Of a stretch of DNA of 64,000 nt, positions 2,581 to 30,800 are shown piece by piece. The DNA is taken from IMG/VR virus record IMGVR_UViG_3300045242_000006, positions 33,287-97,286 of that record; one strand, 5' to 3'. The notes under the pieces were generated by a model, which searched no databases, was not told where the DNA came from, and saw only the letters and a list, made by a program, of their open reading frames with translations. The stretch is from a virus. The position numbers and the translations under genes are program-made. Numbering within the stretch: position 1 is the stretch's first letter; the number at the start of each line of letters is the position of its first letter.

Positions 2581-3046
2581 GTCCACCACCTGTACTATGG
2601 CAATTCAACGTTTCATAGTTGTACTGCCAGTTACCACAGCCAAGGCGGAGGTGGTTACGTTCAGTGGCGATAATAACAGAATTATTATCAACGTTGATTC
2701 TGTTGGCGTGCATCTCTGATCTAGAGATACCACCAGCATAAGGCATAGCCGCACTGATTGCAGCGTTTGGATCTTTCAGCATCAGTCTCAAGGCTTCGTA
2801 GTAATGAGTGAAGATATCACCACCATATACTTCGATATCACCTGTACGTTCACGTGTGTAGCGAGACAGAGTAAACATCAAAGACCTTGCAGCATCTAGT
2901 GTTGCACGGTTTTCATTGCCTTTATATTTGTCGATGAAGTATTGATAATCTTCATCATGCAGCAGTTCCATATCAGGCCAGATATCACCAACGTTCAAAC
3001 GAACTCTGTCAGTGGCAGACCCTGATGGGTTATTTGAATATGGCAT
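2564..3046 (-). CDS. Head-tail adaptor candidate
   Basis: 160 aa, mainly helical, starting MPYSNNPSGSATDRVRLNVG. It is the first gene after the major capsid protein, where the ring of adaptor proteins that docks onto the portal is normally encoded. Size and helical content fit gp6-like connector proteins, but no diagnostic motif was recognised. Spacing to the capsid gene is about 50 bases, and the end overlaps the next gene. Confidence 0.5.
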   Translation of the reverse strand: MPYSNNPSGSATDRVRLNVGDIWPDMELLHDEDYQYFIDKYKGNENRATLDAARSLMFTLSRYTRERTGDIEVYGGDIFTHYYEALRLMLKDPNAAISAAMPYAGGISRSEMHANRINVDNNSVIIATERNHLRLGCGNWQYNYETLNCHSTGGGHGLQY

Positions 3047-7515: not shown

Positions 7516-8985
7516 TTATCTATAAAATGCAAATGGGTTTGCCTGTGTCATTACTGGGATGGAGAAGTCAGGAAGATATTGTTCAGAAGACAATGCATGG
7601 AATGCATCAGACGTGGCGTCTACTTGGTCATCTTTAATATTCTTGCTACCATCGAAACGTTCAAGTTCCATTAGATAGTCCTTAGTCCAGTCAGCCTCAA
7701 TAACCTCAACTGACCCAGCTTCACATGTTGCAGCGAAGGGAGCGAATCGAGTGACTTTGGATTTGTTTGTTTGTTTCATACGAGCATAGAAACCATGATC
7801 AGCCAAGTCACGAATGAGTTGAGCAGCATAAGCTTTACCGGCAGCACCGGGATCGCATGGAACGATAATTTGAACATCATCACCATCGTGTCTTGCAGTT
7901 TCAAGAATCATATCGAATACACCACCATGGCGGCGGCGATCACGAACAACATCTTCAACTGTAAAAATTCCCATCTTATTTCTGCTCATGAGAACACCAG
8001 CAGTCCAGTCAGGGTTACGATTGGTTTCAGATTCGACAGTGCCGCTGATATCCCATGCACGGACACGCTTAATAGAAGCAATGTCTCGTTGAGTTACCAT
8101 ATTGCACCAACTAGATTTGAAGTAGCCTGTGCCTTCAGCACGTGCTAACCAGCTTCCATATAGTAGACGTTCTTTCTCAACACGACCAAGACCTTCTAAC
8201 CAACCAACATATTCAGGTTGAGCATTACAAAGGATTGGGTTATCGTAAACGTTGGCTGCAATGAATTTGAAGCTGAGGGGTTTAACTTGGTTCTTATGAT
8301 CTATAGATAGATGCGGCTTACCATACTTCTCAATCAGTTCCTCTCTCGACTCACCCCACATCATCTTACCATCTTGTTTCAGGAAGTAGCGCATAACACC
8401 ATCACGTTCAGGAATAGGAATTCCTGTTTCTGGGTCAAGCCACCAATCCAACCAATGACGTAGGAAACTACCATAGTCAGGGTTACAAGTGATTTTCATA
8501 TGAGGTTTAACTTCAGGACATTTAGGATTACGCATACGAGAAGTGAGGTATTCAACCATCATCTCTTCGAACTGTTGTCCCTCGTCCACGAGGAATTGAC
8601 TTACTTCCCAACCCTGAAAGTTTTCTTGGTCTTTTGGGTTTTCGAAGTGACGGAGATAAATCTTAGCTCCGTTAGAGAAGGCGAAGTGGTGTTCTTTATC
8701 ACGCCATCTTACCTTTGGATCAATGAGCTTAAAGAGTTCTTCGGCTTTCTCTTGGAGTCCGCCCGGACCTTTAAGTTGTGGTGTAGTACGTCTTACCATA
8801 CAACCACGGAATTTTGGATATTGGACATGTTTAAGGAAGTCCATAACTCCTAAGTAACTTTTACCAGCTCCAGCAGCTCCACCAAATACTGTGATGTCCG
8901 CTTCGCTGTGCATGAAGTCATATTGTTTCTGCGACTTTGGCCCGATAACGTTAGGGTCCAAGTCAAAGACCATATCGTCAGCCAT
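7516..8985 (-). CDS. terL: Terminase large subunit
   Basis: 489 aa from the ATG at 8985 (GAGGACAGG just upstream); a start 48 bases further up lacks a good ribosome site. Walker A GAAGAGKS is at residues 36-43, Walker B is FLVDEGQQF, and the RNase H-like nuclease domain shows RAWDISGT, CDPGAAGKAY and a C-terminal KDDQVDATSDAFHAL, giving the expected acidic residues. This motor packages DNA and cuts concatemers. A strong leftward promoter lies about 90 bases upstream, so packaging and head genes form one operon. Confidence 0.95.
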   Translation of the reverse strand: MADDMVFDLDPNVIGPKSQKQYDFMHSEADITVFGGAAGAGKSYLGVMDFLKHVQYPKFRGCMVRRTTPQLKGPGGLQEKAEELFKLIDPKVRWRDKEHHFAFSNGAKIYLRHFENPKDQENFQGWEVSQFLVDEGQQFEEMMVEYLTSRMRNPKCPEVKPHMKITCNPDYGSFLRHWLDWWLDPETGIPIPERDGVMRYFLKQDGKMMWGESREELIEKYGKPHLSIDHKNQVKPLSFKFIAANVYDNPILCNAQPEYVGWLEGLGRVEKERLLYGSWLARAEGTGYFKSSWCNMVTQRDIASIKRVRAWDISGTVESETNRNPDWTAGVLMSRNKMGIFTVEDVVRDRRRHGGVFDMILETARHDGDDVQIIVPCDPGAAGKAYAAQLIRDLADHGFYARMKQTNKSKVTRFAPFAATCEAGSVEVIEADWTKDYLMELERFDGSKNIKDDQVDATSDAFHALSSEQYLPDFSIPVMTQANPFAFYR

Positions 8986-20289: not shown

Positions 20290-20733
20290 ATGCTTGATCT
20301 GGAAAAACGTGCTGAAGCCTTCGCCACTGAACGCCACAAGGGTCAGAAGTATGGCGATGAAGACTACACATACCACCTTCGTCAGGTTGTAGAGAACGTA
20401 ATCAAGCGTAATCAAGGCCATCCGTTGTTGTCCACTCTGGTTGCCATCGCATGGTTGCACGACGTTCTAGAGGACACTGACACAGAATACCGCGTGGTTG
20501 AGCGTGAGTTTGGTACTGCTGTTGCATACTCGGTCTTAGGTCTGACCAAGCGTGATGGCCTCTCCTACAAAGAGTACATGGAAACAATTGTGAGTGCTGC
20601 TCTTGTACGTGAAGTGAAGATCTGCGATACTATGGCGAATATGGTGGAGAGCATCAAGAGTGGCAACACTAAAGGTTTGATTAAGTACCCACGTCAACTG
20701 ACTATTTTGGTAACAGGAGTTTATTATGAGTGA
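20290..20733 (+). CDS. HD-domain alarmone hydrolase-like protein
   Basis: 147 aa. ATERHKGQKYGDEDYTYHL, AWLHDVLEDTD and VKICDTMANM are the H...HD...D/ED motifs of the SpoT/Mesh1 HD hydrolase domain; no synthetase domain is present. Small alarmone hydrolases cleave (p)ppGpp, so a phage copy could dampen the stringent response or remove alarmone-like toxins. Overlaps the next gene by eight bases. MazG-like or 5'-nucleotidase activities are alternatives. Confidence 0.75.
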   Translation: MLDLEKRAEAFATERHKGQKYGDEDYTYHLRQVVENVIKRNQGHPLLSTLVAIAWLHDVLEDTDTEYRVVEREFGTAVAYSVLGLTKRDGLSYKEYMETIVSAALVREVKICDTMANMVESIKSGNTKGLIKYPRQLTILVTGVYYE

Positions 20734-21295
20734 GATTTGGTTTACAAGTGACCTGCACTTTGGTCACGCGAACATCGTTAAATACTGCAACCGTCCTTGG
20801 ACTGTAGAAGACCAAGAGGAAGAGCTTATCACTCGTTGGAATAGCCGTGTTGGGCTGCTGGATGATGTTTATCATCTGGGTGACTTCACTTTTGCTGGTC
20901 GTAAGAAAGCCGACAAGATTGTTGAAATCATCAAACAATTGAATGGTCAAATCACATTCATTAGGGGTAACCATTGTCAAGATGGCCTGTGGGAAGAGAT
21001 TGCTAAACACAATCTGGCTCATATTGTAGATGTCTGCCACTACAAAGAGATTACCATTGACCGCACAAAGGTTTGCATGTTCCACTATCCAATGGAAACT
21101 TGGAATAAAGCACACCACGGTGCATGGCATCTGCATGGCCACTGTCACGCTTCCATGGCTCCACGTGGAAAGCGACTCGATGTAGGGATCGATAATCATC
21201 CTGATCATCAGGTATTCTCGCTAGCTGAAGTCAAGATTCATATGGCTAAACAAGAATTTGTGATTGTAGATCACCATGACGGAGGACGTGAATAA
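20726..21295 (+). CDS. Calcineurin-like metallophosphoesterase
   Basis: 189 aa with the full dimetal motif set: FTSDLHFGHANI, VYHLGDFTF, FIRGNHC, CMFHYPMETW and LHGHCH. Substrate cannot be deduced. Its place next to RNA ligase and kinase genes is compatible with a role in RNA-end or cyclic-nucleotide chemistry, but that is inference. Confidence 0.85.
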   Translation: MSEIWFTSDLHFGHANIVKYCNRPWTVEDQEEELITRWNSRVGLLDDVYHLGDFTFAGRKKADKIVEIIKQLNGQITFIRGNHCQDGLWEEIAKHNLAHIVDVCHYKEITIDRTKVCMFHYPMETWNKAHHGAWHLHGHCHASMAPRGKRLDVGIDNHPDHQVFSLAEVKIHMAKQEFVIVDHHDGGRE

Positions 21296-21516
21296 TGGCA
21301 AAGATGATTGTTGATACCGAGATGAAAGTGGTGCCTGACGTAGTTCCGGGTACTCTCATGATCCATGAAGACCTCCCGCCATACATCGTAATGGCAACAA
21401 GTATTGTTATTGGGGATGAGTTTGCTGGTGTGTCCCTCTCTGATGGTGTGTATGGTGAGCAGTGGGTTATCAGCGAGTACAGTGTATTTCAAGGCAAGTT
21501 ATCACTGGAGCAATAG
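21295..21516 (+). CDS. Hypothetical protein
   Basis: 73 aa, beta-rich (KVVPDVVPGTLMIHEDLPPY, then GEQWVISEYSVFQGKLSLEQ). One-base overlap with the metallophosphoesterase and a one-base gap before the RNA ligase. No family recognised. Confidence 0.7.
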   Translation: MAKMIVDTEMKVVPDVVPGTLMIHEDLPPYIVMATSIVIGDEFAGVSLSDGVYGEQWVISEYSVFQGKLSLEQ

Positions 21517-21517
21517 T

Positions 21518-22420
21518 ATGTTTGAAGAATTGATAGCTCAAGGGCTTGTAAAACAAAAGCGTTATGAAAACGGCCTGTCTGTGTTCAAGTACGCACGTAA
21601 GGTCTTCTATGATAAGCTCTGGGAGACTGACCCTCTGCTATTGGAAGCACGTGGTATGGTGTTGGATGACGCTGGTAACAAGGTGATCTGGCCCTTCACA
21701 AAGGTGTTCAACTACTTTGAAAACAACGCTGGTGCTGAGTTGCGTCCATCAACTCCAATCATTGCCCCACGTAAGGTGAACGGATTTATGGCTGCTTGCC
21801 GTTACTGGAAAGGTGAGTTGATTGTCTCTACAACTGGCTCTCTCGACTCTGAATTCGCCGTGTTGGCTCGCACGCACATTGAGAAGCTTCAGGGTATTGA
21901 AATCATGGCCTGTAACATGACCGTGTTGTTTGAAATCTGTGATCCATCTGACCCTCACATTGTTGAGGAAGAGGCCGGAGCTTATCTGATCGGTGCACGC
22001 CTCATGCAGAACTGTGCCTACGAGTATGAGATGCTTAACGAAGCTCAGCTTGATGGATACGCTGAGTTGATTGGTGCCAAGCGGCCAGAGACTTTCCGTG
22101 GAACATTTGGTGAGCTTTGGGAGATGGTACGTGAGTGTCGTCATGAAGGTTGGATGGTGATTGACGCTGCCACTCGACAGACAGTGATGAAAATCAAGTC
22201 TCCACACTACCTGTCGAAGAAATTCCTCATGCGAATGGGCGACAAGAAAGTGACTCAGATGTTCACCAACAAGGATGAATTTCTGAAGACGATTGACGAA
22301 GAGTTCTACGCTATCGTACACTACATCACTCGCTGGTGGGGTGAGGATAAGTGGAAAGCAACAACTGAGGGTGATCGCCGTTCGGTCATCGAAAAATACT
22401 TTGAAATGGAGGCACAATAA
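21518..22420 (+). CDS. RNA ligase, T4 Rnl1-like
   Basis: 300 aa from the ATG at 21518 (CTGGAGCAAT upstream). RKVNGF at 85-90 holds the adenylated Lys86 (K-x-N-G instead of K-x-D-G), followed by STTGSL, FEICDPSDPHIVEE, EGWMVID and MKIKSPHYL, the nucleotidyltransferase motifs I-V. LEARGMVLD and VWPF-like TKVFNYFEN match the Rnl1 N-terminal region. Rnl1 enzymes rejoin tRNAs cut by host anticodon nucleases; the adjacent kinase and the phage tRNA array fit that role. Confidence 0.85.
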   Translation: MFEELIAQGLVKQKRYENGLSVFKYARKVFYDKLWETDPLLLEARGMVLDDAGNKVIWPFTKVFNYFENNAGAELRPSTPIIAPRKVNGFMAACRYWKGELIVSTTGSLDSEFAVLARTHIEKLQGIEIMACNMTVLFEICDPSDPHIVEEEAGAYLIGARLMQNCAYEYEMLNEAQLDGYAELIGAKRPETFRGTFGELWEMVRECRHEGWMVIDAATRQTVMKIKSPHYLSKKFLMRMGDKKVTQMFTNKDEFLKTIDEEFYAIVHYITRWWGEDKWKATTEGDRRSVIEKYFEMEAQ

Positions 22421-22836
22421 TGAGCAATATGACCTTGAGACTCGACACGGCTGGACTGCGATCTTTGATTGCTGAGAACCCAGCTTTTTCTGTTGAAATC
22501 CAACAAGCTGTACTGAACAACATCCGAAACGACAATATTCAGCAAGCAGTGGTTGATCGTGTCAACGGTTGTCTGGATAAAATGGCTCCACGTGAGAGTT
22601 ACTACGGCTCTGCACGTATCATCAAGGATCAAAAGCTGTTGGAAGTGATTCATGCCACTGTTCGTGCAGAGGTGAGCGAGAGCCTAAAACAAGCCGTTGA
22701 AGATGCTGTGTCGTCCGCGACCAACTCCATTGACCTTCGTATTCGCCAAGAGGTGAAGAAGCTTGCCAAGGAAATCATTCTGGAGTCTTTGACCTCTGCT
22801 GATGCCAGAGCTATTCTGCTGGAGAAGTTGGTATAG
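22420..22836 (+). CDS. Hypothetical helical protein between RNA ligase and kinase
   Basis: 138 aa, almost wholly helical with coiled-coil character (RAEVSESLKQAVEDAVSSAT, then RQEVKKLAKEIILESLTSAD). Overlaps the RNA ligase stop and the kinase start (TAGTG). Placement inside the RNA-repair pair suggests a partner, without direct evidence. Confidence 0.7.
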   Translation: MSNMTLRLDTAGLRSLIAENPAFSVEIQQAVLNNIRNDNIQQAVVDRVNGCLDKMAPRESYYGSARIIKDQKLLEVIHATVRAEVSESLKQAVEDAVSSATNSIDLRIRQEVKKLAKEIILESLTSADARAILLEKLV

Positions 22837-23228
22837 TGAATCTCTACTTAATTCGTGGCTTGCCGGGTTCCGGCAAGTCTACATTCGCCGCTACATTAGC
22901 TGAGTCTTTGGATTGTCCTCATTACGAGCATGACCAATATCTGTACACAGAAGAAGGTGAATACCTTTGGACGGAAGGGCGTATGGCTTTTGCTTATCGT
23001 CAATGTCTGTTGGACACTGAATCTGTAATGTTACTTGGATCTGACGTTGTTGTATCGAACGTCTTCCCCAAAGGCAAGAGCATGCGTAGCTATCGTAAAC
23101 TGGCTGAGCAGCACGGCTATCGTATCACGTACATTGTTGTAGAGAACCGTCGTGGAGGTGTCAACATCCACGACGTTCCTGCTGATGTGTTGGATAGCAT
23201 GCGTTCTGCATTTCAAATCGAATTATAA
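22836..23228 (+). CDS. P-loop polynucleotide-kinase-like protein
   Basis: 130 aa from a GTG overlapping the previous stop. Walker A GLPGSGKST at residues 8-16, then HYEHDQYLY and VVVSNVFPKGKSM in the positions used by AAA_33/Pnkp-type kinases. It has only the kinase half; no HAD phosphatase domain follows. Would phosphorylate 5'-OH RNA ends before ligation, as T4 Pnkp does, though zeta-toxin-like small-molecule kinases are an alternative. Confidence 0.78.
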   Translation: MNLYLIRGLPGSGKSTFAATLAESLDCPHYEHDQYLYTEEGEYLWTEGRMAFAYRQCLLDTESVMLLGSDVVVSNVFPKGKSMRSYRKLAEQHGYRITYIVVENRRGGVNIHDVPADVLDSMRSAFQIEL

Positions 23229-23699: not shown

Positions 23700-23733
23700 T
23701 TGACAGCATGGGCCACTCGTTATAGAATGGCCC
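23700..23733 (+). promoter_or_regulatory. Promoter/operator of the Prs-like gene
   Basis: TTGACA (23700-23705), then TATAGAAT at 23721-23728. An inverted repeat GGGCCA (23710-23715)/TGGCCC (23728-23733) straddles the -10 box. Nearly the same sequence recurs before the NAMPT operon at 25448. Confidence 0.7.
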
Positions 23734-23757
23734 CACACAAACAAAGGAGGGTCTACA

Positions 23758-24627
23758 ATGACCGAGTTTAACGAAAATCTGTTCTACGCTCTCAACCAGA
23801 AACACAGCCAGCGTGTGTCGATTTCCACCATGAAGTTTCCGGGTGGCGAGGTTGGCGTGAATGTCAATACTGGCTCAATCGATGCCTTCACCACACAAGC
23901 TCAGGGTATCATCACTATCACTCTGACTGCAAAAATTCAGAACAGTGACCACCTGATGCAAATGTTCATGGCAACTGACGCCCTGAAGCGTGTCTACCCA
24001 TTTGCAAACATCGACCTTCTGATCCCATACTTCCCGTATGCCCGTCAGGACCGCGTGTGCAACGCTGGAGAGGCTTTGAGCGTGAAGGTGGTAGCTCAGC
24101 TCATCAATGCTATGAAGTACGCCACAGTGACGGTTGTAGACCCTCACAGCCCTGTTCTCGTAGCTGCTCTAGACAATTGTTACGTCATTGAACAATCTGA
24201 TGCCTTTAAACGTATCAAACAGGATTGGCACAACTGGACTATCGTTGCTCCTGACGCTGGTGCAGCCAAAAAGACTGAAGAGTTTGCCAAGCTGGTTGGA
24301 GCTAAGGATGTACTCTACTTCACAAAGAGTCGAGAGCTGTCCACTGGCCGTATTACTGGAATGAAGATGCTCAATCCAGAGATTCTAACTGGTGAGAACA
24401 AGCTTTTGGTGTTGGATGACATCTGTGATGGCGGTCGCACGTTCGTAGAGTTGTATCAGGCGTTTGACGTTCCTGTACACTTCAATTATGATCGTCTGGA
24501 GTTGGCCGTTACTCACGGTATCTTCTCGAAAGGTGTTACGGTGTTGACAGCGGTATACGATCACGTATACACTACAGACACATTGCCACAAGGCGAAAAC
24601 TCTAAACTCACTGTTATCAAACTGTAA
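23758..24627 (+). CDS. Prs-like ADP-ribose/ribose-phosphate pyrophosphokinase (NARP1 Adps candidate)
   Basis: 289 aa of the ribose-phosphate pyrophosphokinase family: YFPYARQDRV (residues 91-100), VVDPHSPV, APDAGAAKK, and the PRPP loop LLVLDDICDGGRTF (216-229). Cellular Prs makes PRPP. In the phage NARP1 pathway a Prs homologue instead pyrophosphorylates ADP-ribose for use by a NAMPT homologue. Pairing here with a NAMPT-like gene under a duplicate promoter favours that role; ordinary PRPP supply for NAMPT is the alternative. Confidence 0.85.
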   Translation: MTEFNENLFYALNQKHSQRVSISTMKFPGGEVGVNVNTGSIDAFTTQAQGIITITLTAKIQNSDHLMQMFMATDALKRVYPFANIDLLIPYFPYARQDRVCNAGEALSVKVVAQLINAMKYATVTVVDPHSPVLVAALDNCYVIEQSDAFKRIKQDWHNWTIVAPDAGAAKKTEEFAKLVGAKDVLYFTKSRELSTGRITGMKMLNPEILTGENKLLVLDDICDGGRTFVELYQAFDVPVHFNYDRLELAVTHGIFSKGVTVLTAVYDHVYTTDTLPQGENSKLTVIKL

Positions 24628-24637
24628 GGAGATGTAC

Positions 24638-25444
24638 ATGAAAAAGATTATGGCTGGTTTGTTTGGCTTCTTGATGATCGGCGTAATGGCTGTTGATGCA
24701 GGTGCGGCCAGCCGTGTCTCTTCATCTTCATCCCGTTCAAGCTCAAGCTTTTCACGTCCGAGTGTGTCTGCCCCAAAGTCGTATTCGGCTCCGAGTTCTT
24801 CGGGGTCGGGATCGAGCAACGCTGGTCTGAAAGCTTTGGGCTTCAGTCGTCCTGCTTCAAGTCAAACGGTAAAGACACCAAGCGTGAGTGCGAGCCAATC
24901 GCCTAGTCGTGTTACGTCTGCCCCACAGAAGACCACTTCCACCTCTGGTGGTTGGTTCTCTCGCAAGACTGTAAGCTCTACACCAGCAACCACTTATCGT
25001 GCTCCTGTACGTCAAGTGAACAGCCCCGTGGCTTACCGTTCCACTACACGTAATGTTACAGTAGTGCACAACAACTATAGCAGCTACGGTGGAGGATATG
25101 GTGGTCATTATTATGGCGGGTACGGCTACGGTTATCACCCAATGGATGATATGCTCACTGGTATGATGATTGGTTCTATGATGTCTTCCCACCACAACTA
25201 TGGTGGAGGATATAATTCTGGGGCAACTGCTGTACAGATTGAACAGGCAAAGCAAGACCAGCGTATCGAGGATAAGCTGGACGCACTGAAAGAGGACCAG
25301 AATCGGCTGGCGTATAACAACTCCCCAATGGTGCAAACTGGGCAAACAGTTGCTGCACTGCCTGTAGCCCAGCCTCAATGTTTCTTGCCTCAAGATGCAC
25401 CACTGATGATGAACACAAGTTTTTATTGCCAACCGCAAAAATAA
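24638..25444 (+). CDS. Exported Ser/Gly/Tyr-rich protein
   Basis: 268 aa from the ATG at 24638 (AAGGAG six bases upstream). Signal peptide MKKIMAGLFGFLMIGVMAVD then AGAAS. It continues as a serine-rich low-complexity stretch, a Tyr/Gly/His stretch (GGGYGGHYYGGYGYGYHPMD), a Met-rich hydrophobic patch and a short helix. No enzymatic domain. Its placement between the two NAD+ genes is striking; it may act in the periplasm or envelope. Also read in other phages as an uncharacterised protein type; I do not know a function. Confidence 0.72.
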   Translation: MKKIMAGLFGFLMIGVMAVDAGAASRVSSSSSRSSSSFSRPSVSAPKSYSAPSSSGSGSSNAGLKALGFSRPASSQTVKTPSVSASQSPSRVTSAPQKTTSTSGGWFSRKTVSSTPATTYRAPVRQVNSPVAYRSTTRNVTVVHNNYSSYGGGYGGHYYGGYGYGYHPMDDMLTGMMIGSMMSSHHNYGGGYNSGATAVQIEQAKQDQRIEDKLDALKEDQNRLAYNNSPMVQTGQTVAALPVAQPQCFLPQDAPLMMNTSFYCQPQK

Positions 25445-25447
25445 AGC

Positions 25448-25480
25448 TTGACTGAAAGGGCCACTCTGCTAAGATGGCCC
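25448..25480 (+). promoter_or_regulatory. Promoter/operator of the NAMPT-like operon
   Basis: TTGACT (25448-25453), 16-base spacer, TAAGAT (25470-25475). GGGCCA (25458-25463) and TGGCCC (25475-25480) form the same inverted repeat as before the Prs-like gene, and both are followed by CCACACAAAC-type sequence. Confidence 0.7.
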
Positions 25481-25508
25481 CACACAAACGAACAAGAGGA
25501 CGGTAATA

Positions 25509-25709
25509 ATGCACACAGTAATCAAGACTTCTGAAGGGCTGCAATCAACTTTGAGTATTGAAGTTCTTCCAGTGATGGAAGAAACTCCGCAGTGGAAGAA
25601 GGTAGTTATTGCCTGTGAAGATAAAGGTGTCGCTATCCACGTCTTCGACGATGAGATTAGTGAGCTGATTACCGCACTACAACAAGCACAAAAGGAGATG
25701 AATGTATGA
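25509..25709 (+). CDS. Small hypothetical protein leading the NAMPT operon
   Basis: 66 aa (MHTVIKTSEGLQSTLSIEVL, then EISELITALQQAQKEMNV), beta then helix. Overlaps the NAMPT-like start by four bases, so translation is coupled. No family recognised. Confidence 0.68.
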   Translation: MHTVIKTSEGLQSTLSIEVLPVMEETPQWKKVVIACEDKGVAIHVFDDEISELITALQQAQKEMNV

Positions 25710-27529
25710 GCAACTTTCTGATGCAACTGGCTACCGATGGCTACAAACTGGGCCATGGTCCAATGTACCGTAAAGGCACCACTCAAGTTGGTAGCAACCT
25801 GACACCACGTTCTGAAAAGATTCACCGCCGTAACTGCACTGCATTCTACGATGGCAAACTGGTTTGGGTTGGTGGTCAAGCAGCAGTACAAGAGCTGCAC
25901 GAAAACTGGGAACGCACTTTCTTCTCTCAACCTAAATCGAAAGTGATGCCTGAGTACGAAGAATTCCTGATGGGCTATTTGGGTCGTGAACTTCCAACTG
26001 TTGCCCAAATGGATACTCTGCACGATCTGGGTTATCTGCCTCTGGAGTTCCGTTCTCTGCCTGAAGGCTCGCTGGTTCCGATGGGTATTCCTGTCCTGAC
26101 CATCACCAACACTCTGGATGATTTCTTCTGGCTGGTGAACTACCACGAAACTCCGCTGTCCACTTCCACTTGGAAGACAGCAACTAACGCAACTATTGCA
26201 CGTGAGTATCGTAAGATTTGTGAACACTACACCAAGCTGACTGGCTGCTACGATGCCTTCACTGTTTCGGTAATGTGTCACGACTTCTCGATGCGTGGCA
26301 TGAGCGGTATTGAAGACGCTGCACGTAGCGGTATTGGCCACTTGACTCAGTTCATCGGTACTGACACCCTGCCAGCAATCACCTACGCGAAGGGTTACTA
26401 CGATGCAACTGGTTTGATTGGTGTCAGTGTTCCAGCAACTGAACACGCTGTAACTTCGAACAACATTCTGTCGATCTTGGCAGAGTTGCAAAATGGTACT
26501 TACGAATTCTTGTCCCGAGAGCAGGCAGCGATTGCATCTCAAATGAGTTACGACGGACAAGAAGAGCGTTTGATCGCTGAAGTGATGTTCGTGTATGACC
26601 TGATTACCCGCATTGTACCTAACGGTATCGTGTCTAACGTGTCGGACACCTACGACTTCTGGGGTATGCTGAGCCGTGGTTATCCGTACCTGAAAGATGT
26701 AATCATGCGTCGTGAGGGAATGGGTCCACAACCGGGTAAACTGGTGGTGCGTCCAGACTCTGGTGATCCTGTTGAAGTGATCTGCGGTGCTATCGCTCTG
26801 AATGTTGACGACTCTGAAGACTTCGGTGAGATTGAGTTCCAAGCTGTTCGCTGGATGGAGAAACACCAAGACCGCTTCAAGGTTAATGAAGGCTACGAAT
26901 TCACCTTCGTGTGTAACGATGGCGTGTACGCAACTCTGCAAATCTCTTCGTATCCGGGTGAAGAACACGGCAACGGTGATGATCTGTACTTTGAAGTGCA
27001 CTGCGGTTGGTACGAGACTGACGTGACCCCAGAAATGAAGGGTGCGATTCGTGTCCTGTTCGAAACCTTCAGTGGTACTATCACTGAGACTGGCCACAAA
27101 ATACTTGACTCGCACATGGGCTTGATTTATGGTGACTCGATCACTGCCAAGCGTGCTCTGGAGATTCTGGATCGTTTGATGGAGAACGGCTACGCTGCTG
27201 CAAACGTTGTGTTTGGTGTTGGTAGTTTTACATACCAGTGCAACACACGTGATACCTTTGGCTTTGCGGTTAAGGCTACTAACTCTGTCATCAATGGTGA
27301 TGAGGTGGCAATCTACAAAGATCCGAAGACTGACAGCAAGAAGAAAAGTGCCAAAGGTCGTCTGTTTGTCGATCTGGACCACGAACTGGATGGCTACCCA
27401 TTCTCGCTGCAAGATAACGTGTCTGCTGAGAAGGAAGCAAGCCCAGAGAACATGCTGAAAGTGTTCTACCGTGATGGCGTTTTCCTGAGCCGTGTAACGC
27501 TTGATGAGATTCGTCAACGTTCAATCTGA
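25706..27529 (+). CDS. Nicotinamide phosphoribosyltransferase family enzyme (NadV/NAMPT; NARP1 Namat candidate)
   Basis: 607 aa. Family hallmarks: TDGYKLGHGPMY at the start, CHDFSMRGMSGIEDAARSG, GVSVPATEHAVTSN, LVVRPDSGDPVEV, IYGDSIT and FGVGSFTYQCNTRDTFGFAV. Typical members are about 470-500 aa; the extra length is an insertion of about 110 residues between VRPDSGDP and the IYGDSIT motif. NAMPT joins nicotinamide to PRPP; phage NARP1 enzymes can use pyrophosphorylated ADP-ribose to rebuild NAD+ in one step. Confidence 0.9.
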   Translation: MSNFLMQLATDGYKLGHGPMYRKGTTQVGSNLTPRSEKIHRRNCTAFYDGKLVWVGGQAAVQELHENWERTFFSQPKSKVMPEYEEFLMGYLGRELPTVAQMDTLHDLGYLPLEFRSLPEGSLVPMGIPVLTITNTLDDFFWLVNYHETPLSTSTWKTATNATIAREYRKICEHYTKLTGCYDAFTVSVMCHDFSMRGMSGIEDAARSGIGHLTQFIGTDTLPAITYAKGYYDATGLIGVSVPATEHAVTSNNILSILAELQNGTYEFLSREQAAIASQMSYDGQEERLIAEVMFVYDLITRIVPNGIVSNVSDTYDFWGMLSRGYPYLKDVIMRREGMGPQPGKLVVRPDSGDPVEVICGAIALNVDDSEDFGEIEFQAVRWMEKHQDRFKVNEGYEFTFVCNDGVYATLQISSYPGEEHGNGDDLYFEVHCGWYETDVTPEMKGAIRVLFETFSGTITETGHKILDSHMGLIYGDSITAKRALEILDRLMENGYAAANVVFGVGSFTYQCNTRDTFGFAVKATNSVINGDEVAIYKDPKTDSKKKSAKGRLFVDLDHELDGYPFSLQDNVSAEKEASPENMLKVFYRDGVFLSRVTLDEIRQRSI

Positions 27530-27536
27530 TCTATCG

Positions 27537-27560
27537 CCCCTCTTCGGAGGGGCTTCTTTT
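27537..27560 (+). terminator. Rho-independent terminator after the NAMPT gene
   Basis: CCCCTC (27537-27542), TTCG loop, GAGGGG (27547-27552), then CTTCTTTT. Confidence 0.8.
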
Positions 27561-27696: not shown

Positions 27697-27917
27697 AGCT
27701 ACTCTGCACTTACTTTGCAGCTGGAATTCGATACAACTGGGGCCAAGAGAGTTCATTCCACAGAGTCTTTAAAGTTACTTGTGGAGCACCCTATGATGCT
27801 GTATGGGCTGCTGACTGGATTCAAAAACAGATTGAAAGCAAAGGTGGTAATGTGGTGTTTACGCAATTCAATATGGTGGGTGCTCCACAGGAGGTGAGTG
27901 ATGACTTTGAAGTATAA
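27693..27917 (+). CDS. Hypothetical protein
   Basis: 74 aa from the ATG at 27693 (MKLLCTYFAAGIRYNWGQES, then AADWIQKQIESKGGNVVFTQ). Couples the micro-protein and the macro-domain gene through overlaps at both ends. No family recognised. Confidence 0.65.
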   Translation: MKLLCTYFAAGIRYNWGQESSFHRVFKVTCGAPYDAVWAADWIQKQIESKGGNVVFTQFNMVGAPQEVSDDFEV

Positions 27918-28416
27918 GGTTGGTGATATTTGCGATGCTCTGCAATCTGGTGAAGTGAGTGCAATTGGGCACCAAGCAAACTGCTTCAACACTATGAACT
28001 CTGGGGTTGCCAAGGCTATCCGTGCACGCTTCCCAGATGCTTACGATGCTGACTGTGAAACAGTTAAAGGTGACATCACAAAGTTTGGTGATAGCTCTAT
28101 AGGGACTATGTACAATGATACGCACAATATGGGTTTGATCTACAACTTGTATGGCCAGTACAATTATGGTTATGACGCAAAAGGTTATACCAGTTATCCT
28201 AAGTTGAAACAGGCTCTTGAGAGTATGCGTGACGACCTGCTGAGTGCAACCGATTACCACCCACATTACTTCAAAGTAGGTTTCCCTAAAATTGGTGCTG
28301 GACTTGGAGGTGGGGATTGGGATACAATCGCTGAAATCATCGACCAAGTGTTCGACGAACGTTTCAGTGTCACAATCTACGTACTAAGGGAAGACGATGT
28401 ACCGGGACGCGGTTGA
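27901..28416 (+). CDS. Macro-domain protein (ADP-ribose binding/processing)
   Basis: 171 aa. GHQANCFNTMNSGVAKAI (residues 23-40) and FPKIGAGLGGGDWDTIAEII (128-147) are the two ADP-ribose loops of macro domains of the Appr-1-phosphate processing/TARG1 group. Such enzymes remove phosphate from ADP-ribose-1-double-prime-phosphate or reverse ADP-ribosylation. The acidic residue that follows the second loop in TARG1 is not in the same place, so activity may differ. It lies one operon after the NAD+ genes. Confidence 0.85.
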   Translation: MTLKYKVGDICDALQSGEVSAIGHQANCFNTMNSGVAKAIRARFPDAYDADCETVKGDITKFGDSSIGTMYNDTHNMGLIYNLYGQYNYGYDAKGYTSYPKLKQALESMRDDLLSATDYHPHYFKVGFPKIGAGLGGGDWDTIAEIIDQVFDERFSVTIYVLREDDVPGRG

Positions 28417-28546: not shown

Positions 28547-28849
28547 ATGATTGCTTCTGCACTGGAATTCTTGTTAAACAACTGGTTGATCATCGCTACT
28601 GCATACGGTATCGTGTATGCCACCTACGTGTTCTACTACCTGTACAGTATCCGTTTCAAAGAGGTGCGTCGTGTCACCACACGTGACTTCAGTGAAGCCT
28701 GTGGTGAAGCTGTGTTCGGTCCATTCATCCTGCCATGCTGTGTCATCGGTGACGCACTGTCCACTGTCAAAGTGAGTATTCTGGCAATGGTGAACATCGG
28801 TTTGCCGAAGGAAGAGCCTAAGAAAGGTTCTGATCGTTCGGTAGTCTGA
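28547..28849 (+). CDS. Small membrane protein
   Basis: 100 aa. Residues 8-32 (FLLNNWLIIATAYGIVYATY) form one transmembrane helix; AVFGPFILPCCVIGDALSTV may be a second. Cys pair CC in the second segment. Overlaps the SLOG-like gene by one base. Function unknown; proximity to the ADP-ribose genes is noted. Confidence 0.7.
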   Translation: MIASALEFLLNNWLIIATAYGIVYATYVFYYLYSIRFKEVRRVTTRDFSEACGEAVFGPFILPCCVIGDALSTVKVSILAMVNIGLPKEEPKKGSDRSVV

Positions 28850-29421
28850 TGAAATTCTACACTGGCGTTGGAAGTCGCGAATCACCAAGTGAAATCCTGA
28901 AGTTGATGGAAAACATTGGTGAAAAGCTTGCCAGTCAGGGTTGGACTCTACGCTCGGGCGGTGCCGTTGGTGCCGACCAAGCTTTTGAGAAAGGGATGTT
29001 CAAGTTTGCAGGATATGACCAACCCTACAGTTGGTTGCCTGCTGAAATCTACCTTCCTTGGAGCGGTTATGAAGACCATTATAAGGATACCCACGGTGGA
29101 TTGAACATCCTTCCCAGCCAAATCAAGCTTGACGACGAACGTATTGCTGAGGGTATGGCAATGGCGATTCACCCAGCTTGGGAAGCATGCAAACAAGGTG
29201 CAAAGAAGATGCACACTCGTAATGTGTTCCAAGTGCTGGGAAGAACGCTTGACGCACCATCCAAAATGCTGATAGCATGGACTCGTCTTGATAATCGCGG
29301 CAACCCTAAAGGTGGGACAGCCACAGCGATCAATCTGGCAAATGAAAATGGTGTCTCAACCTTCAACTTGAACAAGCCTGAAGATTTTGAACGCGTTAAT
29401 AAGTGGATTGGAGGCTTGTGA
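28849..29421 (+). CDS. SLOG/DprA-like Rossmann protein
   Basis: 190 aa. MKFYTGVGSRESPSEILKLM, RSGGAVGADQAFEKG (residues 35-49), AEIYLPW and GGTATAINLANENGVSTF are the nucleotide-binding loops of the SLOG superfamily (DprA, LOG, YpsA relatives). SLOG domains bind nucleotides or NAD-derived ligands and occur as sensors in anti-phage systems. Whether this one binds DNA, a nucleotide or an ADP-ribose-like signal cannot be told from sequence; the neighbourhood favours the last. Confidence 0.8.
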   Translation: MKFYTGVGSRESPSEILKLMENIGEKLASQGWTLRSGGAVGADQAFEKGMFKFAGYDQPYSWLPAEIYLPWSGYEDHYKDTHGGLNILPSQIKLDDERIAEGMAMAIHPAWEACKQGAKKMHTRNVFQVLGRTLDAPSKMLIAWTRLDNRGNPKGGTATAINLANENGVSTFNLNKPEDFERVNKWIGGL

Positions 29422-30598: not shown

Positions 30599-30800
30599 AT
30601 GTCAACTCTGCAAAGACCTACGACACCTTAAAGATTGTGGTGTCTCAGAGGAATTTATGGATCACTATCTCGATGAAGGTCTTGATGCAGAATACCGAAA
30701 AGCAGTCCTTGACGGCTCTTGGCCTTCTAGCGTAGAATTGCTCACATCAGCACTAGAGCGTGCTATCAAACGGAGAGAAGAAAATGAGCATATTCGATAA
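30588..30800 (+). CDS. Small Cys-containing protein
   Basis: 70 aa; N-terminus MACECQLCKDLRHLKDCGVS has C-x-C-x2-C, then acidic helices ending IKRREENEHIR. Overlaps the TelA-like gene by 17 bases. Function unknown. Confidence 0.65.
   Translation: MACECQLCKDLRHLKDCGVSEEFMDHYLDEGLDAEYRKAVLDGSWPSSVELLTSALERAIKRREENEHIR

Follow-up and report, generated by a model that had tools for sequence, protein, structure and literature searches.

The adps-namat Locus

The stretch of DNA studied here (herein the window; 64,000 nucleotides, positions 33287 through 97286 of the 97,286-bp IMG/VR virus record IMGVR_UViG_3300045242_000006) belongs to a phage that is a 97-kb relative of the Otagovirus phages; of the named phages, the nearest to it are Pseudomonas phages, among them VCM, phiPsa267 (Otagovirus), Kremar, REC, and Psxphi15. 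An initial annotation had pointed to a Prs-family gene and a NAMPT-family gene about 1.1 kb apart and proposed that they encode the NAD+ reconstitution pathway NARP1. Both are intact open reading frames (ORFs) on the + strand, separated by 1,078 bp and assigned to these families by profile searches. The pair is very probably a NARP1 module made of an ADP-ribose pyrophosphate synthetase (Adps) and a nicotinamide ADP-ribose transferase (Namat): both phylogenies, signature residues, and a structure search bear the proposal out, and no NMN (nicotinamide mononucleotide) adenylyltransferase was found in the record. The catalytic residues are intact, the clamp motif of Namat is present, and the promoters of the paired genes are conserved (Table 1).

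By analogy with characterized relatives, the module would counter a host defense that cleaves NAD+ to ADP-ribose and nicotinamide. Adps would move pyrophosphate from ATP onto ADP-ribose, giving ADP-ribose pyrophosphate (ADPR-PP), and Namat would join ADPR-PP and nicotinamide into NAD+ directly, without an NMN step. Expression would depend on host sigma-70 RNA polymerase, with each gene driven by its own sigma-70-like promoter.

Table 1. Features of the adps-namat locus, in window positions
Feature	Position	Strand	Remarks
Promoter 1, before adps	23700..23733	+	TTGACA-17-TAGAAT (11/12 consensus); dyad GGGCCA(23710)..TGGCCC(23733)
adps, ADP-ribose pyrophosphate synthetase (Prs-like, 289 aa)	23758..24627	+	Profiles, tree, signatures DPHS, APDAGAAK, DDICDGGRT
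Ser/Gly/Tyr-rich, secreted-looking protein (270 aa), between both enzymes	24632..25444	+	phrog_26986
Promoter 2, before namat unit	25448..25480	+	TTGACT-16-TAAGAT; dyad GGGCCA(25458)..TGGCCC(25480)
ORF of 66 aa overlapping the namat start	25509..25709	+	Weak phrog_24648; namat ATG at 25706
namat, nicotinamide ADP-ribose transferase (NAMPT-like, 607 aa)	25706..27529	+	Profiles, tree, structure search, clamp motif
Selectivity-clamp loop (SCL), residues 36-42 SEKIHRR	25811..25831	+	K38 at the SPbetaL1 R40 site; compared with PMC12774641
Insert 1 of Namat, about residues 252-286	26459..26563	+	Well-predicted helices
Insert 2 of Namat, about residues 363-442	26792..27031	+	Helix and strands of lower confidence; VCM lacks it
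Selectivity-clamp helix motif GSFTYQCNTRD, residues 506-516	27221..27253	+
Intrinsic terminator after namat	27536..27560	+	GCCCCTCTTCGGAGGGGC TTCTTTT
Macro-domain protein (172 aa), TARG1/Poa1p/DarG fold class	27898..28416	+	Candidate partner; belongs to the unit beyond the terminator
SLOG/DprA-like protein (190 aa)	28849..29421	+	Conserved neighbor; role in the pathway a guess only

The Prs-Like Protein Groups with Adps

Profile searches place the adps product in the Prs family (Pfam Pribosyltran_N, 5.6e-12; TIGR01251 above cut-off; phrog_619, 1e-90) and label it a ribose-phosphate pyrophosphokinase. Its phylogeny resolves the family further, as 57 Adps-type rows split from 12 cellular Prs with a support of 100. 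Adps-type proteins, including that of the window, have DPHS in place of the DLHA motif of cellular Prs, and the window protein reads DDICDGGRT (as do 35 of the 57 Adps rows) where cellular Prs mostly has DDMIDTGGT or DDMIDTAGT. Neither cellular hallmark, DLHA or the D-T-(G/A)-G-T loop, is present in it. In Prs this loop binds the 5′-phosphate of ribose-5-phosphate; its replacement would therefore fit a substrate whose 5′-phosphate is not terminal.

The NAMPT-Like Protein Carries the Namat Clamp Motif

The namat product belongs to the NAMPT family (NF006629 above cut-off; phrog_448, 5e-178), and profile searches label it a nicotin(amid)ate phosphoribosyltransferase. A maximum-likelihood tree separates 61 Namat-type rows, among them the window protein and Namat of SPbetaL1, from 7 Nampt rows (branch support 100); neither protein of the pair thus clusters with plain salvage enzymes. 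The AlphaFold2 model (predicted local distance difference test [pLDDT] 91; predicted template modeling score [pTM] 0.90) finds as its top Foldseek matches the Namat crystal structures 9w5x and 9w5w (E 4.7e-51; template modeling score 0.93 by target length), followed by NadV of Haemophilus ducreyi (HdNadV) and then NAMPT at about 1e-37. Compared with 9w5x, the window protein keeps the NMN-side contacts of SPbetaL1 Namat (D13, Y15, F189, S190, R192, D215, A242, R306, D308, G360, and D361), and its catalytic His sits in PATEH.

Namat is distinguished by a selectivity clamp, which combines a loop residue (R40 in SPbetaL1) with a helix motif GSX-phi-X-phi-X-phi-TRD, in which the residues at positions 3 and 7 stack against adenine (PMC12774641). 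The window protein has the helix motif, whereas true Nampt enzymes read GGGLLQ or GGALLQ at this site. Motif position 3 (position 392) is F508, and this position is aromatic in 182 of 183 homologues. Motif position 7 (position 396) is C512 versus Tyr in SPbetaL1; of the same homologues, 115 have Y here, 24 C, 24 M, 10 F, and 7 H. Other residues take the place of the usual Namat tyrosine throughout entire clades. DyoEdafos Namat is among the proteins with H at position 396. The DyoEdafos enzymes bear the same signatures as the window pair and make NAD+ in vitro (PMC13232231); given the variation across homologues and the His of this active enzyme, position 396 appears replaceable. In SPbetaL1 Namat, R40A/Y396K lowers activity only 2.4-fold (PMC12774641). 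In the clamp loop of Namat, either an Arg stacks or a Lys or Tyr precedes the residue that does so. The window protein has K38 followed by I39 and H40; Bas63-type enzymes are reported to stack via the residue following the loop Lys.

NARP1 or Nicotinamide Salvage

Two points speak against assigning the pair to NARP1. As judged by alignment, two of the three adenine-stacking clamp positions differ from SPbetaL1 (Y396 to C512 and the loop, K38-I39). In addition, HdNadV (Protein Data Bank [PDB] 9ke8) falls within the Namat clade although all three of its clamp residues are lost (E40, Q392, R396). We take HdNadV to be a PRPP (phosphoribosyl pyrophosphate)-using enzyme that forms NMN, in line with its PDB title, which names a complex with NMN. 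Membership of the clade alone is therefore no proof of ADPR-PP use, and PRPP-using NadV may have evolved from Namat. The locus of a Pasteurellaceae bacterium (L138) with a protein related to HdNadV has no Adps nearby.

These points bear on a rival in which the pair performs plain nicotinamide salvage: the phage Prs would make PRPP from ribose-5-phosphate, the NadV-like enzyme would make NMN, and the host would adenylate it. An NMN-forming relative in the same clade and a nonaromatic residue at clamp motif position 7 would suit it, as would the finding that Namat itself keeps some PRPP activity in vitro (PMC12774641). We nonetheless regard salvage as improbable. Adps, which has no DTGGT/DTAGT loop, is split from cellular Prs at full support, and the NAMPT-like protein has the Namat motif rather than the GGGLLQ of Nampt. 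Moreover, the 97-kb record has no nucleotidyltransferase (PF01467) match, as expected if NAD+ is made directly; the Nampt loci of Stenotrophomonas phage YB07 and a Novosphingobium plasmid do encode a nucleotidyltransferase. Nearly all homologous loci examined have an Adps-type gene near Namat. Such pairs are also common in bacterial contigs (L107-L186; Achromobacter, Chromobacterium, Pseudoalteromonas, Enterobacteriaceae, and others).

The NARP1 assignment is consistent with the characterized systems of SPbetaL1, Bas63, and DyoEdafos (PMC12774641, PMC13232231), which share with the window the two families, the catalytic residues, the motif backbone GSxTYQxxTRD, and a same-strand arrangement in which Adps precedes Namat. 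The window differs from them in that 1.08 kb and two other genes separate its pair, each enzyme gene has a promoter of its own, Cys occupies clamp position 7, and two loops are enlarged. Systems that combine Nampt/NadV with an NMN adenylyltransferase (NARP2-type; YB07 and the Novosphingobium plasmid) share the fold and the nicotinamide chemistry but have GGGLLQ in place of GSFTYQ and a nucleotidyltransferase partner in place of Adps. A further parallel is Adele, of the sister genus Pakpunavirus, with the order Adps, Namat, macro gene and a macro protein proposed to supply ADP-ribose (PMC12846349); Pakpunavirus loci lack the 270-residue protein between the enzymes. The NARP1 of the window is thus real and conserved but ordinary, a NARP1 pair with a downstream macro gene being already known from Adele. 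It places NARP1 counter-defense firmly in Otagovirus relatives, phages studied for plant-disease biocontrol, whose records still annotate a plain ribose-phosphate pyrophosphokinase and nicotinamide/nicotinate phosphoribosyltransferase.

The Extra Length of Namat Lies in Two Variable Loops

The initial annotation described an insertion of about 110 residues in the NAMPT-like protein that might widen the substrate pocket or add regulation. The extra length is genuine, but it is made up of two insertions at variable loops, which exceed the SPbetaL1 chain by about 35 and 73 residues. Loop 1 has 47 residues in the window versus 12 in SPbetaL1; loop 2 has 85 versus 12 and ranges from 12 to 132 residues across the 183 Namat sequences, in which both loops vary widely in length. 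VCM Namat is 87% identical to that of the window yet lacks insert 2, the larger one, and DyoEdafos Namat, active in vitro, has 494 residues and neither loop enlarged. These comparisons tell against a widened pocket. Given the variable lengths and the VCM protein, the inserts are decorations that reveal nothing special about function, and a special pocket or regulatory domain was rejected as a novelty. The Felixounavirus phage adrianh has a loop 2 of 89 residues; Bas63, an experimentally studied NARP1 phage, belongs to the same genus.

Each Gene Has Its Own Dyad Promoter

The pair had also been placed under a duplicated promoter/operator. There are indeed two near-identical promoters, in both of which a GGGCCA..TGGCCC dyad surrounds the -10 region; the promoters are separate, however, one for each gene, and namat is followed by a terminator. 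This terminator closes the namat unit and so leaves the macro gene in the next one. Allowing one mismatch, the window contains no dyads of this kind besides these two, and a promoter-anchored scan of the 97-kb record found no other GGGCCA dyads. Promoter 1 is conserved in VCM, phiPsa267, and the related loci L016, L017, L019, L020, and L025. Relatives have dyad promoters before adps and namat with the arms AGGCCA/TGGCCT or GGGGCCAG/CTGGCCCC, and Pakpunavirus has GGCCCAGATT/AATCTGGGCC. In SRT6 and PAK_P1-type loci, unlike the window, a dyad promoter was seen before Namat only, with different arms.

Since standard DNA alignment left the left arms unaligned, counting of pairs was dropped in favor of a permutation in which halves were swapped. 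Random re-pairing reached the observed complementarity in 6 of 5000 permutations (152 versus 135.8, standard deviation 4.4; relatedness not controlled), so the arms co-vary. From its position around the -10 region, the dyad is most likely an operator for a shared regulator, plausibly a sequence-specific one. The host XRE regulator SrpA of the Pseudomonas aeruginosa myovirus K5 was considered and discarded, as its site, TATC..GATA (PMC5945682), does not match.

A contending explanation, to which we give serious weight without preferring it, is that the dyad is not an operator: transcripts reading through it would fold into a hairpin that acts in processing, stability, or partial termination, or the dyad would be a by-product of the conserved start region ATGGCCCCACACAAAC. 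The spacing of GGGCCA arms is not fixed (10 to 12 bp), the right arm is retained in L018 where the left arm is lost, and other promoters of these phages carry dyads of unrelated sequence (14 of 74 score at least 6, versus 3.8% in shuffled segments), one with a UUCG-type loop. The co-variation of the arms beyond re-pairing (relatedness not controlled) counts against this explanation, but it is as compatible with a hairpin as with an operator. Against a hairpin, transcripts from the promoter itself would begin near the right arm and thus lack the left one. Examples of unrelated inverted repeats around the -10 of sigma-70-like promoters are found at 3025(-) in the record (G000) and at 7731(-), 29460(-), and 34058(-) in VCM, the last with a UUCG-like loop.

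Repeated sigma-70 elements as such are known from PAK_P1-like cousins, which have 5-6 copies of a 41-nt repeat reported absent from the Pseudomonas syringae phage phiPsa374 (PMC4309531). Those elements resemble the promoters of the window in being host-type (TTGACA-N17-TAgAAT) and in the conservation of neighboring bases among related phages; the element of the window differs in its dyad around -10 and in having just two copies in the record. What holds of the regulatory novelty first claimed is this dyad version, which in the Otagovirus relatives appears undescribed in the searchable literature. As a conserved variant, the regulation merits a brief note.

A third dyad promoter lies downstream in VCM, before a membrane gene of the Ter cluster, and L016, L019, and L037 also have similar copies downstream; none stands before the Ter membrane gene in the window. 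This touches on a further alternative, that the pair makes a different product, such as a signal nucleotide for the neighboring Ter-like genes (TelA and vWA). These genes lie 3-5 kb downstream, Ter systems include phosphoribosyltransferases (PMC7824862), and the third promoter of VCM and the other loci is of the same type as that of the pair. The window lacks that promoter, many lineages with Adps and Namat pairs have no TelA in their flanks, and the active-site residues fit NARP1; we consider a Ter signal very improbable.

Macro Genes Recur beside NARP1 Pairs

Partner genes had likewise been presented as new; NARP1 with a Poa1p-like macro gene was already paired by the authors on Adele (PMC12846349), and Macro, NADAR, and SLOG neighborhoods in phages, some with NAD+ synthesis genes, have been described (PMC9503650). 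New here is the breadth with which macro genes recur beside NARP1 pairs across several phage lineages. In 52 clusters of viral Namat loci, a macro gene lies within about 6 kb in 13 and between Adps and Namat in 5 (contigs L042, L047, L054, L055, L059, L065, L071, and L077). Mapped on the Namat tree, nearness requires 9 changes and the between-gene position 5. Among the 17 contigs in which Pfam detects a macro domain, this domain is close to Namat in 9 versus 2.1 expected (P 5e-5; P = 8.5e-4 once three related Pseudomonas-phage contigs count as one). Other genes occupy the same place: a NADAR gene in L105 (3723-4244; PF08719, 3.7e-47), RyDEP in DyoEdafos (PMC13232231), and small proteins with HAD-like motifs (DFDDT ... 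LDDRAGL, seen by eye, with no Pfam match) in L081 (5100-5669), L086 (5260-5700), L094 (5570-5965), and L104 (5574-5999).

The model of the window macro protein (pLDDT 90) has TARG1, Poa1p, and DarG as its best fold matches, at about 20% identity. H25, N28, M33, and G36 are invariant in 24 homologues, and H25 is probably the counterpart of H23 in Poa1p, an equivalence put forward earlier for the homologue in Adele (PMC12846349). The phage family does not conserve K95, the Lys closest to the catalytic position of DarG/TARG1, and DarG-type de-ADP-ribosylation of DNA was set aside on this ground, although the fold class fits.

The presence of macro genes in several lineages, and of NADAR once, beside NARP1 pairs suggests an accessory slot for enzymes that feed ADP-ribose into the pathway. 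This idea is our most interesting lead and, as an inference, is offered tentatively. NARP1 might often be a three-part system with an accessory ADP-ribose-processing enzyme, although we hold this to be rather unlikely; here a Poa1p-like macro protein would turn 1″-modified ADP-ribose into ADP-ribose for Adps. Macro, NADAR, RyDEP, and possibly the small HAD-like proteins would be alternative fillers of one slot. As the macro substrate, a host signal or adduct is conceivable, as is ADP-ribose-1″-phosphate from the breakdown of ADPR-PP; the latter, if true, would account for the retention of a Poa1p-type phosphatase even though no KptA is found. KptA (tRNA 2′-phosphotransferase) was rejected as a source of the substrate, as the record has no PF01885 match. 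Neither did the record yield a NADAR gene; RyDEP (PF02026) gave no match, but its control matched nowhere either, so absence is not implied. That a macro or NADAR gene keeps appearing next to the pair or between its two genes yields a testable proposal on the source of ADP-ribose for rebuilding NAD+.

Neighboring Genes

VCM keeps the order RNA ligase, small gene, ATPase, prs, hypothetical protein, NAMPT, small gene, macro, small gene, DprA-like. The 270-residue protein between the enzymes has a signal-peptide-like start and occurs in Otagovirus-group loci; it need not be part of the pathway. True Nampt genes likewise have a DprA-like SLOG gene within 5 kb in Klebsiella phage KP27 (L010) and Stenotrophomonas phage YB07 (L011). 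After the SLOG gene of the window come Ter-type genes, TelA-like (30760-31920) and vWA (31917-32603), as in relatives. PADLOC returned weak domain-level matches only. Upstream, positions 20290-23228 encode an HD-domain hydrolase, an ORF annotated as a phosphoesterase in relatives, an RNA ligase, and a P-loop kinase, which resemble the tRNA-repair and alarmone-hydrolase genes noted in phage Adele.

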